The notes beneath the pieces were generated by a model, which worked only from the letters and a program-made list of their open reading frames with translations, ran no database searches and was not told the DNA's origin. Source: Magnetococcales bacterium (GTDB taxonomy: Bacteria > Pseudomonadota > Alphaproteobacteria > UBA2136). From it: a DNA stretch of 35,798 bases. Position 1 is the stretch's first letter. Every line of letters starts with the position of its first letter. The DNA lies in NCBI GenBank assembly GCA_002689455.1, contig NZGE01000014.1:1-35798 (forward strand), in the 5' to 3' direction. Positions 9,023 through 35,798 of this stretch are shown here, one piece after another. A program made the translations under genes and the position numbers.

Positions 9023-9376
9023 TTAGCCGTGGGAAAGGCTAAGCATGCGAGATATGAGCAATGTATGAAGATCTTCTAGTTGCGTGCACAGGGCATTTAC
9101 ACGCACATAGTTTCTTTGAAGTCCTGCCGTTTCAATATCTGCGCATATGTCACCTAGTGGGGTAAATCCTAGGTTCATGCATACACCTTTAAACTTGTGA
9201 GCTGCATTTTTAAGCTCTTGAGATTCCTTTTCGGAGGCACTTAATTTGATATGGGCAATCATATTAGGTGCTTGATCTCGGTAAAGGCCAATAATGGTGT
9301 TTAGAGTTGTGTTATCACCATGGCCTAAGTTTATAAGTGTGCTTAAGATATTTTTAGGCAGACTTGTTACATACAT
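9023..9376 (-). CDS. HPt (histidine phosphotransfer) domain protein
   Basis: A stand-alone Hpt domain, likely relaying phosphate in a multistep His-Asp phosphorelay. The signature NAAHKFKGVCMNLGFTPLGDICADIE contains the phospho-accepting His at residue 60 of the 117-aa product. The rest is predicted four-helix bundle. I chose the ATG at 9376. A GTG at 9445 would add 23 very basic residues, but a CTGCCA/TATACT promoter (9450-9479, minus strand) would then place the transcription start on that GTG. No histidine kinase or receiver is in the window, so the partners are unknown. A link to the neighbouring sigma-54-type envelope cluster is only a guess. Confidence 0.75.
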   Translation of the reverse strand: MYVTSLPKNILSTLINLGHGDNTTLNTIIGLYRDQAPNMIAHIKLSASEKESQELKNAAHKFKGVCMNLGFTPLGDICADIETAGLQRNYVRVNALCTQLEDLHTLLISRMLSLSHG

Positions 9377-9449
9377 TTTTGCTTTTCTCGTTCTTTTTGT
9401 TGCACTCTTAATTTTGATCGTATGCTTCAATTTTAAAGTTGTCACGACC

Positions 9450-9634: not shown

Positions 9635-10366
9635 ATGAAATTTTTATCAATGTTTCTGTGTTCATTTTTATTTATGAATATGGCGCATGCGCAATTGGAT
9701 GTTGCTGTTGATACTGTACAACGTTATTTCTTGGAAGGTGGTAAACGCTTTCAAACTTTGAAAGTTTCAAATAACAGTGGGGACAGTAGTTTTGAAATTG
9801 GTGCAGAGCTATACCGTTATACAAATATTCATGATCGTAAAACGCACGAGGCAGAATTTGAACCTGTGCAAGGGCATTTCTTATTGGCACCTAAAAAGTT
9901 TAAGTTAGAGCCTGGTCAAACCCGATCTATAAGATTGGTTCATACAAAACAGCATGATGATAAAGAGCATGTATATCGTTTGAACTTTATACCTAAGTTA
10001 ATTACAGATAATGTGGGTAGTAATAATGAAGATGCTCAAGGTGTTAAGCCATCGGCTAAGGTTATTACAGCTGCGGGTATGTTGATTCTTGTTTCGCCTA
10101 AAGAGCCAGATCTAGATATTTCTTATAACCGTGATGATGCTGGTATTACATTTACCAATACGGGTAATGTGGCGGGAGACTTTCGCTTAACAAAAGAATA
10201 TTGTTATAATTCAAATATTGAGTCATCGTGTATGGAGCTGCCTGGTAAGCGCCTTTATCCAGGTGAACAGTGGAGGTTTGAGGTTGCTTCAGATATTCCA
10301 CTTAGATGGGCTGTTCTTGCCTATAAAGATATTCAGAAGTGGTTGGATATTCCAGGGGTAGACTAA
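9635..10366 (+). CDS. PapD-like periplasmic pilus chaperone
   Basis: Probable chaperone of a chaperone-usher-type system, a two-domain immunoglobulin-fold protein that holds pilin subunits in the periplasm. The signal peptide MKFLSMFLCSFLFMNMAHA is cleaved after residue 19. The N-terminal domain has the early basic residue region (VDTVQRYFLEGGKRFQ) and the family-like LLAPKKFKLEPGQTRSIRLV and EHVYRLNFIP strands. The C-terminal domain contains ITFTNTGNVAGDFRL, similar to the NP/NTG-type loop, and a Cys pair (C196, C204) typical of some members. Length is 243 aa. It lies just upstream of two pilin-like genes but is separated from them by a terminator, and no usher gene is present. Confidence 0.75.
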   Translation: MKFLSMFLCSFLFMNMAHAQLDVAVDTVQRYFLEGGKRFQTLKVSNNSGDSSFEIGAELYRYTNIHDRKTHEAEFEPVQGHFLLAPKKFKLEPGQTRSIRLVHTKQHDDKEHVYRLNFIPKLITDNVGSNNEDAQGVKPSAKVITAAGMLILVSPKEPDLDISYNRDDAGITFTNTGNVAGDFRLTKEYCYNSNIESSCMELPGKRLYPGEQWRFEVASDIPLRWAVLAYKDIQKWLDIPGVD

Positions 10367-10393
10367 TTTGCTATACAAATAACATTTAAAGAG

Positions 10394-10426
10394 GGTCTGT
10401 CAGAAAAAAGTGACAGGCCTTTTTTA
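10394..10426 (+). terminator. Terminator after the chaperone gene
   Basis: GGTCTGTCA pairs with TGACAGGCC (one T-G wobble) around an A-rich loop and is followed by six or more T. It separates the chaperone unit from the first pilin-like gene. Confidence 0.85.
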
Positions 10427-10506: not shown

Positions 10507-10523
10507 TTGGCACGTAGGTTGCT
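10507..10523 (+). promoter_or_regulatory. Near-perfect sigma-54 (RpoN) -24/-12 promoter
   Basis: TTGGCACGTAGGTTGCT matches the consensus TTGGCACG-N4-TTGCW at every defined position. The invariant GG (10509-10510) and GC (10521-10522) are separated by 10 nt. Expected transcription start is near 10534, giving a leader of about 180 nt before the pilin-like gene at 10715. The leader also contains an inverted repeat ATAGGTT (10623-10629) / AACCTAT (10656-10662) and a TATAAT at 10592 that could belong to a second, sigma-70 promoter. Apart from these sites I see no gene in 10367-10714. Confidence 0.75.
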
Positions 10524-10714
10524 TATAAGTGGGTACATAAGAAACGTGAAAGCATTATGCATTTTTACTTCGCAAATGGGTGCAAGATGTGTATAATGAA
10601 AATATTGATAGTGACTTAATGTATAGGTTTACGAATGTATCGTCTCTTATGTGTTAACCTATCATGTGGGTATCCGGCAAGAAGCTAGATGCTAAATAAG
10701 AAAGGAAAATCGCG

Positions 10715-11278
10715 ATGAAAATGTCTAAAATTTTAATGGCTGGTACATTATTAGCTTTGGGCGCAACTACAGCGCACGCTGCTTCTGATGGTGGTCTAGC
10801 TGCTACTTCTACAGGTACATCTGATGTTCAACTTATCATTGCTGAACGTGTGCAGATTACAGGTCTTGCTGACTTGGTTCTGGACAACGGTTCAGGCGGT
10901 GCTGCGAACACATACGAACCAGGTTCTGGTGATGTATCTTTCACAAGTACGTTTTGTGTACACTACAACAACGCTACAGGTGTTGACTTGACAATCAACT
11001 CTACAAACGGTGCTGGTACAGGTTACCTTCTAGATGATGGTTCTGGTAACCAAATCACTTACCAAGTAGAGATTGATGAAGGTGACGATGGTGGTGCAAC
11101 AGCTCACGCTGAAGCAGCTACAATCCAGTACTCTTCAATGGCTAGCACAACTCTAAACTGTGGTGGTACACCTAACAACAACGTTCGTGCGTTTGTGTTA
11201 GACTCTGGTTCACCTCTAGGTGTGCCTAACGGTACTTACCAAGATACACTATCATTCATTATTGCTCCAAACCCATAA
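10715..11278 (+). CDS. Secreted pilin-like protein (SCPU/archaic chaperone-usher-like), copy 1
   Basis: Secreted 187-residue protein with signal peptide MKMSKILMAGTLLALGATTAHA. The mature chain begins ASDGGLAATSTGTSDVQLII and ends GVPNGTYQDTLSFIIAPNP. The C-terminal G-x-Y-x-D-T-hydrophobic beta strand and the two cysteines resemble spore-coat-U-domain and Csu-type pilins, but the family assignment is from pattern only. It is acidic and Gly/Asn/Thr-rich. Codon choice is like that of the ribosomal protein genes here (mostly AAC, TAC, CTA), suggesting very high expression. The Shine-Dalgarno AAAGGA (10701) supports the start. It is transcribed from the sigma-54-type promoter at 10507 and ends at its own terminator. 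Its close paralog lies 123 nt downstream. Confidence 0.65.
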   Translation: MKMSKILMAGTLLALGATTAHAASDGGLAATSTGTSDVQLIIAERVQITGLADLVLDNGSGGAANTYEPGSGDVSFTSTFCVHYNNATGVDLTINSTNGAGTGYLLDDGSGNQITYQVEIDEGDDGGATAHAEAATIQYSSMASTTLNCGGTPNNNVRAFVLDSGSPLGVPNGTYQDTLSFIIAPNP

Positions 11279-11301
11279 TGAGTGATGACTGTTAGTTGAA
11301 A

Positions 11302-11330
11302 GAAGTCCCTTTAAGGGGCTTCTTTTTTTT
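11302..11330 (+). terminator. Terminator after pilin-like copy 1
   Basis: GAAGTCCC pairs with GGGGCTTC (one wobble) and is followed by eight T. It lies between the two paralogs, so copy 2 is likely to be expressed separately or by read-through. Confidence 0.85.
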
Positions 11331-11346
11331 GAGGTTAATTTATTTT

Positions 11347-11360
11347 GGTCTTGTTCTTGC
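11347..11360 (+). promoter_or_regulatory. Candidate sigma-54 (-24/-12) element upstream of pilin-like copy 2
   Basis: TTGGTCTTGTTCTTGCAT has GG (11347-11348) and GC (11359-11360) exactly 10 nt apart, with good TTGG and TTGCA flanks but a poor CACG part. It is 42 nt before the start codon. Confidence 0.4.
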
Positions 11361-11401
11361 ATTGTCTTTTTTAACTTTAGGTAAAAGAAAGGTAATGCAG
11401 G

Positions 11402-11983
11402 ATGCGTATTAAAGCTTTATTTGTATTAGGTGTGTCATTGATGGGGTTGAGTTTAATCTCTCTTTATCAAAAATCGTCTAATGCTTATGCTTCTTCCGAC
11501 GGTGGTTTGGCATCAACTTCAACAGGTACAAGTGACGTTCAGCTTATTGTGCAAGAGCTTGTTCAAGTTGAAAACTTGGTGGATATTGACTTTGACAATG
11601 GTGATGGCAGTAATGTTTATGTTCCAAATGGTGGTGATGTTTCAGGTACAAACGTTTTTTGTGTGTATTATAACAACGCAACTGGTGTTGACTTAACATT
11701 AAGTTCAACACGTGGCGCAGGTTCTGGTTTTGTTTTAGAAGACGGCTCCGCGAACGCAATTCCATATATTGTTGAGATTGATGAAGGTAATGATGGTGGT
11801 TTTACACCGCATGCAGACAGCGCAACTGTGAATTATCCAAATATGGCTGATTTACAGCCAAACTGTGCAGGTGGTACAACCAACGCCTTACGTGTACGTG
11901 TGAATGATACAGGTTCTCCTTTAGGTGTTCCTAATGGTACATATACGGACACAATTACCTATTTAATTGCTCCAAACCCATAA
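11402..11983 (+). CDS. Secreted pilin-like protein, copy 2 (paralog of copy 1)
   Basis: The 193-residue product is a clear tandem paralog of the preceding gene. It shares SDGGLA(A/S)TSTGTSDVQLI near the mature N terminus, FCV(H/Y)YNNATGVDLT around the first Cys, VEIDEG(D/N)DGG, and the C-terminal TGSPLGVPNGTY(T)DT. The signal peptide is longer (MRIKALFVLGVSLMGLSLISLYQKSSNAYA). Codon use is ordinary for this genome (more AAT, TAT, GTT) and lacks the bias of copy 1, which suggests lower expression. A minor or tip subunit, or a divergent redundant copy, are both possible. No sortase, adhesin or usher is nearby. Confidence 0.65.
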   Translation: MRIKALFVLGVSLMGLSLISLYQKSSNAYASSDGGLASTSTGTSDVQLIVQELVQVENLVDIDFDNGDGSNVYVPNGGDVSGTNVFCVYYNNATGVDLTLSSTRGAGSGFVLEDGSANAIPYIVEIDEGNDGGFTPHADSATVNYPNMADLQPNCAGGTTNALRVRVNDTGSPLGVPNGTYTDTITYLIAPNP

Positions 11984-12170: not shown

Positions 12171-13787
12171 ATGAAAAGTCGTTCAATTGTATCATTTGTA
12201 TTGATGGTATTTTCCGTTTTTGCATGTAGCTTTGCATTTGCTGCATCTACAAATCACCCTCAAACGCTGAAAGAGGCTTTGGCTTCTACTTATACGGTTG
12301 TTTATCAAAATAACCATGGTGTTACAAATGGCTTTGGTAGTGGTTGGCTTATTGATGTGGAGGAATTTGAACTGACGGGTTGTTATGTTGTTACAAATAG
12401 CCACGTTATTTCAAGGCTTTCTAAGCAGAAAAAGCTTCAGGTTGCTCGTATTTATGTTCAGCAATTTTTGGAGCTAAATGGGAATCAATGGTCAGAAACC
12501 ATGGCTGCTGAAATTGTTTATACAGACCCTAAAGGTGATATTGGTATTTTGAAAATACCAAGTTGTGATGGTGTGAAACCTTTTAAGCTTAAAACAGTCG
12601 GCGTTGAGTCTGGTTTATTGGTTCATGCTTTGGGTTCTCCGTCGGGCTTGCATCAAACGGTAACATCTGGTGTCGTTTCCTTTAATAAAAGGTATTATGT
12701 AAAGGGGCAATCTTATATACAAACAGATGCGCCTATTAACCCTGGTAATTCAGGTGGCCCACTGGTTGACCGTAAAACTTTTGAAGTTATTGGTATGAAT
12801 ACCATGATTTTAGGACGTTCTACAAAGTTAGAGGTCACAACCGACGGTTTGGGTCTGTCTGTGAGAGCTGCGACAATCCGTCAAGCGTTTCATAATATGA
12901 TTCAGTTAGGGCATCCCAGTTACCCAAGTTTAGGGTTTTTATTTTCACCAACAACTTCAGACACTTTATTAATTCATAATTACCCACGCAGTCTGTCACA
13001 GGTTGAAGGGTGTCGAGGAATTATGGTTGGTGAAGTTGTTGAAGGTAATGGCGCCGAGCAGGCTGGTTTGCTTGTCGATGACATTGTTGTGAAAATTAAC
13101 GGGGAATGTGTAAATGGTTTGAATAGCTTGTTTTCTGTTTTAAACGCAAGTAGTACACATAAACCTTTTAAGCTTATGGTTTGGCGTTCATCTGAAAACC
13201 GTGTTGTAAACCTCTCCATTGAGGCGCAGGAAAAATATGAGCCGATTGGAAGTGAACGTATAGACGGTGCAGAGCCTGCACGTGTTTATAATGGTTTGCT
13301 TGGTTTTGAAATTTCCAATGATACGGATTTTCCAACCGATAAACCGGTTGTGGTTAAAGTGTATGAATATAGTGAAGCCTTTTGGCAGAATATGCTACTT
13401 GGTTATCGCACGCCTCCGATTGATCAGGATAGTTTGCCTGTCATTCCAACCGTTCCACGTCGTATACCTATGAAACCACCTGTTGTTATGAATGTTTTGG
13501 AAAATCCAAGCTCTTTTATTCATTTAGAAGATGGAAAAAGACGCAAAAGTTTTCAATACATTGAATCAGTCAGGGATACTTTGGGTCGTACACTTTCAAA
13601 TGTTACGCAAGAAAGTTTGGAGCAGTTTGCTTTGGAGGCTAAAAATGCAGGTGCTAAATTGGTTTTTAAAATGCGTTTTGTTGTTTTAAAGTCTAATTAT
13701 ACGGGAACTGCATGGCAAGAAGATGAAGAGATGTCTAATACACGTCTTGTTTTCTTTAATCCGACGGCATACCAATCACCTGAATAA
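12171..13787 (+). CDS. Secreted DegP/HtrA-like serine protease with PDZ and unknown C-terminal domain
   Basis: Trypsin-like periplasmic or exported protease. A signal peptide (MKSRSIVSFVLMVFSVFACSFAFA) precedes a chymotrypsin-fold domain with an intact triad: His78 in VVTNSHVI, Asp123 in PKGDIGILKI, and Ser194 in NPGNSGGPLVD. A single PDZ domain follows at about 270-350 (GIMVGEVVEGNGAEQAGLLVDDIVVKING in two halves). Residues 351-538 form an extra domain that I cannot assign, with FEISNDTDFPTDKPVVVKVYE and LVFKMRFVVLKSNY as likely strands. At 538 aa it exceeds standard single-PDZ HtrA proteins by about 150 aa. The Shine-Dalgarno TCGGAGG (12158-12164) fixes the start. Location beside the chaperone and pilin-like genes suggests envelope quality control or processing, which is an inference. 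Confidence 0.85.
   Translation: MKSRSIVSFVLMVFSVFACSFAFAASTNHPQTLKEALASTYTVVYQNNHGVTNGFGSGWLIDVEEFELTGCYVVTNSHVISRLSKQKKLQVARIYVQQFLELNGNQWSETMAAEIVYTDPKGDIGILKIPSCDGVKPFKLKTVGVESGLLVHALGSPSGLHQTVTSGVVSFNKRYYVKGQSYIQTDAPINPGNSGGPLVDRKTFEVIGMNTMILGRSTKLEVTTDGLGLSVRAATIRQAFHNMIQLGHPSYPSLGFLFSPTTSDTLLIHNYPRSLSQVEGCRGIMVGEVVEGNGAEQAGLLVDDIVVKINGECVNGLNSLFSVLNASSTHKPFKLMVWRSSENRVVNLSIEAQEKYEPIGSERIDGAEPARVYNGLLGFEISNDTDFPTDKPVVVKVYEYSEAFWQNMLLGYRTPPIDQDSLPVIPTVPRRIPMKPPVVMNVLENPSSFIHLEDGKRRKSFQYIESVRDTLGRTLSNVTQESLEQFALEAKNAGAKLVFKMRFVVLKSNYTGTAWQEDEEMSNTRLVFFNPTAYQSPE

Positions 13788-34898: not shown

Positions 34899-35798
<900 letters not shown>

Follow-up and report, generated by a model that had tools for sequence, protein, structure and literature searches.

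The question raised by this locus is whether a sigma-54 promoter element controls the adjoining gene for a secreted fimbrial subunit, and to which regulon this gene would then belong. Promoters of the sigma-54 class are familiar, and type IV pilins under RpoN control have been described before; in the open-access papers searched, we found no chaperone-usher subunit tied to a flagellar sigma-54 regulon. The window, i.e. the whole stretch of 35,798 nucleotides that was analysed, is part of a draft genome of 1.61 Mb that is 85.7% complete (G000). Together with one genus-mate that is 97% complete (G001), it represents the genus, and this sample of two genomes limits the promoter reading given below. 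A 16S rRNA gene starts in the window (34899-35798) and runs off the contig end.

The features of the locus are as follows:

9635-10366, plus strand: gene for a PapD-type periplasmic fimbrial chaperone (PapD_N 26.2 bits, cut-off 23; weak TcfA chaperone match)
10387-10426, plus strand: intrinsic terminator at the end of the chaperone gene (stem of 16 pairs with a T run)
10507-10523, plus strand: P1, sigma-54 -24/-12 promoter element TTGGCACGTAGGTTGCT (perfect consensus; predicted start near 10534)
10569-10597, plus strand: P2, sigma-70-like promoter TTCGCA-17 nt-TATAAT (10/12 consensus letters)
10598-10714, plus strand: highly conserved leader common to P1 and P2 transcripts (111/117 identical to G001)
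10715-11278, plus strand: gene for secreted chaperone-usher fimbrial subunit 1, 187 aa (predicted fold CupE, CFA/I, Csu; codon adaptation 0.837)
11297-11330, plus strand: intrinsic terminator past subunit 1 (13-pair stem then T run, -18.0 kcal/mol)
11345-11361, plus strand: weak element of sigma-54 type ahead of subunit 2, TTGGTCTTGTTCTTGCA (GG-10-GC spacing retained, poor match in the -24 box)
11402-11983, plus strand: gene for fimbrial subunit 2, 193 aa (paralog of subunit 1 with 58% identity; own terminator-separated unit)

The -24/-12 element and its conservation

The sigma-54 element at 10507-10523 is real. It matches the RpoN -24/-12 consensus perfectly on the plus strand, as the preliminary description had stated, with GG (10509-10510) and GC (10521-10522) separated by exactly 10 nt and placed at -24 and -12 in the context TTGGCAC-N5-TTGCW. 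Within the window it is the sole zero-mismatch match to TGGCACGNNNNTTGCW. P1 is located 208 nt ahead of the ATG at 10715, between a terminator and the subunit 1 gene, and because this terminator follows the chaperone gene, the subunit 1 gene needs a promoter inside the gap. A start near 10534 would leave about 181 nt to the ATG, in agreement with the leader of ~180 nt proposed earlier.

Chance alone would give between 0.3 (by composition) and 1.2 (by a first-order Markov model) perfect TTGGCACN5TTGCW sites across the 1.61 Mb, and about 1e-5 on one strand of a 140-nt gap; four were observed in the draft. Scored with a matrix trained on 12 other regulon sites, spacer columns included, P1 reaches 17.0 and ranks second in the window; among 30 random windows the highest score was 20.6. 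The score of P1 is thus not above random maxima, and the argument for this element is drawn from where it lies and from its conservation rather than from score alone.

The subunit 1 ortholog in G001 (74% amino-acid identity) carries TTGGCACGGCCATTGCT upstream, at the same distance to its ATG. All non-central letters of the element are kept (13/13) and none of the central ones (0/4); identity between the two genomes is 45% in the 137 nt preceding P1 and 76% in the stretch between P1 and P2. As judged from this alignment, conserved outer letters around a changed centre, adjoined by dissimilar upstream DNA, are what would be expected for a -24/-12 element under selection.

Some observations count against a promoter role of P1. 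Its upstream DNA is unconserved between the two genomes, and f4, a related family, does not keep the sigma-54 element at orthologous places. Three one-mismatch sigma-54-like elements were found upstream of f4 pilin genes when CAY was allowed in the -24 box (0.15 expected); with differing distances, non-orthologous places and regions picked post hoc, they are only suggestive. In addition, 18 promoters were searched for enhancer motifs by EM (palindromic and free), and pairwise footprinting was applied. No consistent motif emerged, either for an ftr site (bound by FlbD) close to the pilin promoter or for an enhancer common to P1 and the flagellar promoters, and the latter result also weighs against P1.

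The fimbrial subunit and its neighbours

The product of the gene downstream of P1 begins with a cleavable signal peptide, recognized by eye and followed by polar residues, and the gene has the ribosome-binding sequence AAGAAAGGA. No Pfam or NCBIfam match was obtained for subunit 1, while two of its relatives touch SCPU (best E 0.001). A structure predicted from 16 relatives (pLDDT 69.8, moderate model confidence) matches the folds of CupE (E 1.7e-4), CFA/I (4.8e-4) and Csu (2.9e-3). On this model, subunit 1 is predicted to be a chaperone-usher pilin with an incomplete immunoglobulin-like fold. Type IV pilin families of Pfam and NCBIfam gave no match, and a type IV pilin was ruled out, with neither a prepilin motif nor a hydrophobic N-terminal helix seen by eye. 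The secreted pilin-like protein announced by the preliminary description is therefore retained as a secreted fimbrial subunit, with "pilin" understood in the chaperone-usher and not in the type IV sense. Relatives of subunit 1 were found only inside this order, in the range searched.

Codon adaptation was calculated relative to the 13 ribosomal proteins of the window. With 0.837, subunit 1 has the highest value among the genes tested, compared to 0.59-0.79 in ribosomal genes, 0.46-0.64 in other genes, 0.53 in the neighbouring chaperone gene and 0.63 in that of subunit 2. The ribosomal-protein-like codon use noticed before is hence borne out, and it marks the gene as a probable case of very high expression.

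Resemblance to archaic and alpha (CS1/CFA/I-like) chaperone-usher pilins such as CupE, Csu and CfaB includes the predicted fold, the adjoining PapD-like chaperone gene and a TcfC/CooC_C usher elsewhere in G000. Unlike these systems, subunit 1 is without a Pfam or NCBIfam match and its locus is without an usher gene. The usher in question, with TcfC and CooC_C domains, belongs to a divergent chaperone-usher-pilin operon on another contig (G000:C10, L128 3068-6796); the Pfam Usher model had no match in G000, this usher included. Sigma-54-like matches inside the usher gene of C10 and of G001 (TGGCAAGCCAATTGCA) were rejected, since the sequence encodes a conserved protein stretch. As in type IV pilin genes that depend on RpoN, such as pilE in commensal Neisseria (PMC6528607), a putative sigma-54 promoter stands ahead of a gene for a major surface-fibre subunit, but the subunit is not a type IV pilin, and the fibre and its assembly pathway differ.

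In the place of the weak element before subunit 2, G001 has TTGGCTTTGTTCTTGCA; the function of this element is uncertain. A weak sigma-54-like match before the chaperone gene (9575) was rejected, as its conserved letters in the alignment better fit TTGCTT-17-TATGAT. Directly downstream of both subunit genes lies a gene for a secreted trypsin-like protease with a PDZ domain (window 12171-13787), in the same order in G001. On the other side, a gene for an Hpt phosphotransfer protein (window 9023-9445, minus strand) is divergent from the chaperone gene.

RpoN, its activators and the sigma-54 regulon of the genus

The preliminary description had named absence of rpoN from the genome as decisive against a sigma-54 promoter. 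Searches with the family and with the G001 protein did not find rpoN in the G000 draft, so that the absence holds to the letter, while the gene is found in G001 and in 47/61 relatives. Gene order in G001 is lptC-lptA-lptB-rpoN-hpf. In G000, lptB (92% identical to that of G001) stops at C11:41095, 109 nt short of the contig end at 41204; hpf was likewise not found in this draft. Because the contig breaks right after lptB, where rpoN follows in G001, the missing gene is best read as a probable assembly gap, and RpoN would be encoded in that gap. With rpoN and hpf apparently located there, absence calls in the G000 draft need care.

Three activator-type proteins are encoded in G000. The one on C29, close to fliG, is nearest to the FlbD model (best NCBIfam match 531 bits, curated cut-off 750), and has a degenerate receiver and a GAFSGA loop. 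That on C75 is an NtrC-like response regulator with an intact receiver, a GSFTGA loop and an Hpt gene alongside (L031 4744-5103). The third, on C25, is NtrX-like and lacks a GAFTGA-type loop, which makes it unlikely to be a sigma-54 activator. By their sequences, the FlbD-like protein and C75 are predicted to be competent sigma-54 activators, so enhancer-binding proteins of the expected kind are present in the genome.

Genome-wide sites were surveyed by pattern searches with reversed-pattern controls. Allowing at most one mismatch, G001 gave 47 matches against 20 for its reversed control, and G000 gave 35 against 27, so that the excess is clear in the former and small in the latter. The three perfect sites of G001 precede flgK, glmM and the subunit 1 ortholog. 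Of the four in G000, three precede these same genes; the remaining one falls within a different gene, on the opposite strand. Intergenic sites that are near-perfect and orthologous in location stand ahead of flgI, flgB, flgF and a fliK-like gene heading flgD-flgE. NCBIfam identified flgK, flgI, flgB, flgF, flgG, flgH, flgD, flgE, fliG and glmM, while fliK was assigned by position only. As the conserved sites mostly precede flagellar genes, the sigma-54 regulon is mainly flagellar, as with FlbD in Caulobacter (PMC3096577, PMC3930126).

Additional sites were also noted. The cell-wall precursor gene glmM, with its conserved perfect element upstream (L078 160-176 in G000:C48; L047 1501 in G001), is an unexpected member for a flagellar-type regulon. 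A gene of the GGDEF (cyclic-di-GMP synthase) type in G000 has a near-perfect element just upstream of its start (L080 1718, G000:C37). In the flagellar cluster, a small pilin-like gene next after flgH has the element TTGGCACACACTTTGCG 30-50 nt upstream (L076 6230-6246, G000:C54); its G001 counterpart (L087 5407) keeps GGCAC-N6-TTGC without the outer letters.

In Caulobacter, class III/IV flagellar promoters depend on sigma-54 with FlbD/FliX and ftr enhancers (PMC3096577, PMC3930126). P1 resembles them in having the same -24/-12 form as the sites before flgK, flgI, flgB, flgF and fliK-flgD-flgE described here, and G000 encodes an FlbD-like activator with a degenerate receiver. Unlike them, P1 would drive a chaperone-usher pilin, no ftr-like enhancer was identified, and P1 is accompanied by a second, sigma-70-like promoter and a long leader, both conserved.

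Two promoters, the leader and the proposed control

P2 is plausibly a housekeeping promoter inside what had been taken as the P1 leader. Both of its hexamers are identical in G001 (12/12), with 13/17 spacer letters kept. The leader that follows (same stretch in L093) is 95% identical between the two genomes, compared to 76% in the coding sequence. Strongest conservation therefore begins at P2 and not at P1, which counts against the P1 reading, and the strongest constraint appears to fall on the RNA common to transcripts from both promoters.

The whole leader folds somewhat better than shuffled sequences do (z -1.84 in one species, -2.40 in the other). In the consensus fold zero pairs change on both sides, and two sequences cannot show covariation. 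Rfam gave no known RNA family for the leader, and no other full-length copies exist in the genomes; G004 shares just 28 nt with it, where the pilin gene of that genome has its ribosome-binding site and ATG. An upstream ORF in the leader (ATG 10596) was rejected, as its start codon is lost in G001. The leader could be a structured or protein-bound part of the mRNA and probably acts after transcription. In Caulobacter, FlbT controls flagellin mRNA through its 5' leader (PMC3930126). Here too a conserved leader precedes an abundant surface-fibre subunit of a putative sigma-54 regulon, which we offer only as a lead; unlike in the flagellin case, no FlbT or leader-binding factor is in evidence.

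We consider it reasonably probable (about 0.65) that P1 is a functional sigma-54 promoter that puts fimbrial subunit 1 under the flagellar sigma-54 regulon, most likely working together with P2. Its observed basis is P1, its conservation, the form shared with flagellar promoters, the fold class and the codon bias. Dual control is likelier than pure sigma-54 control, given that P2 is as well conserved as P1 and is followed by a leader of 95% identity. The sigma-54 drive proposed in the preliminary description is thus kept with respect to the conserved element and given up as exclusive drive. If P2, with its TATAAT at 10592, were the main or only promoter and P1 minor or silent, the rise in identity just downstream of P2 and its conserved hexamers around a varying spacer would be well accounted for. 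The codon bias, suggesting constantly high expression, suits a housekeeping promoter, and f4 pilin genes have CATAAT at a similar distance without a conserved sigma-54 element. We nevertheless regard this explanation as unlikely. It leaves unexplained both the -24/-12 letters kept around a fully changed centre and the perfect sites at just three genes in both species, subunit 1 among them; furthermore, TATAAT may also be conserved as the 3' arm of a hairpin predicted for the P1 transcript.

The activator also has to be considered. P1 could be a true sigma-54 promoter activated by the non-flagellar C75 regulator upon an environmental signal. Its intact receiver, GSFTGA loop and adjoining Hpt gene speak for this, and sites at glmM and at the GGDEF gene indicate a regulon that is not purely flagellar. 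Conserved sites are mostly flagellar, however, and would be expected to have FlbD as their activator, so we hold this variant to be improbable. Activators of the required kind are encoded in G000, and the specific signal assumed in the preliminary description would probably be the flagellar assembly programme because most other conserved sites precede flagellar genes. Least credible of all is a functionless chance match of the 17-mer: the 0.3-1.2 perfect sites expected per genome and a matrix score, spacer columns included, that does not exceed random maxima would allow it, but the conservation pattern and position in G001 strongly disfavour it, as does the expectation of just about 1e-5 in the intergenic gap.

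According to the preferred reading of combined control by P1 and P2, RpoN holoenzyme at P1 would be opened by FlbD, the best candidate, or alternatively by C75, giving transcription timed with the flagellar genes. Flagellar genes for the rod, ring and hook would belong to the same regulon in this genus. P2 would set a basal transcript level, over which P1 may add flagellar- or cell-cycle-timed expression, and the leader would probably tune stability or translation. A more extended proposal, which we put forward tentatively and consider rather doubtful, is that the FlbD/sigma-54 checkpoint of the flagellum extends to chaperone-usher fimbriae and turns them on, through this locus and the pilin-like gene in the flagellar cluster, with the leader adding an FlbT-like post-transcriptional step and fibre subunits being made in step with flagellar assembly.

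The dual promoter and conserved leader represent a concrete, testable arrangement for regulation of a gene with the codon use of very high expression. If the link to the flagellar regulon is true, this uncultured lineage would coordinate its attachment fibres with the building of the flagellum through one checkpoint.
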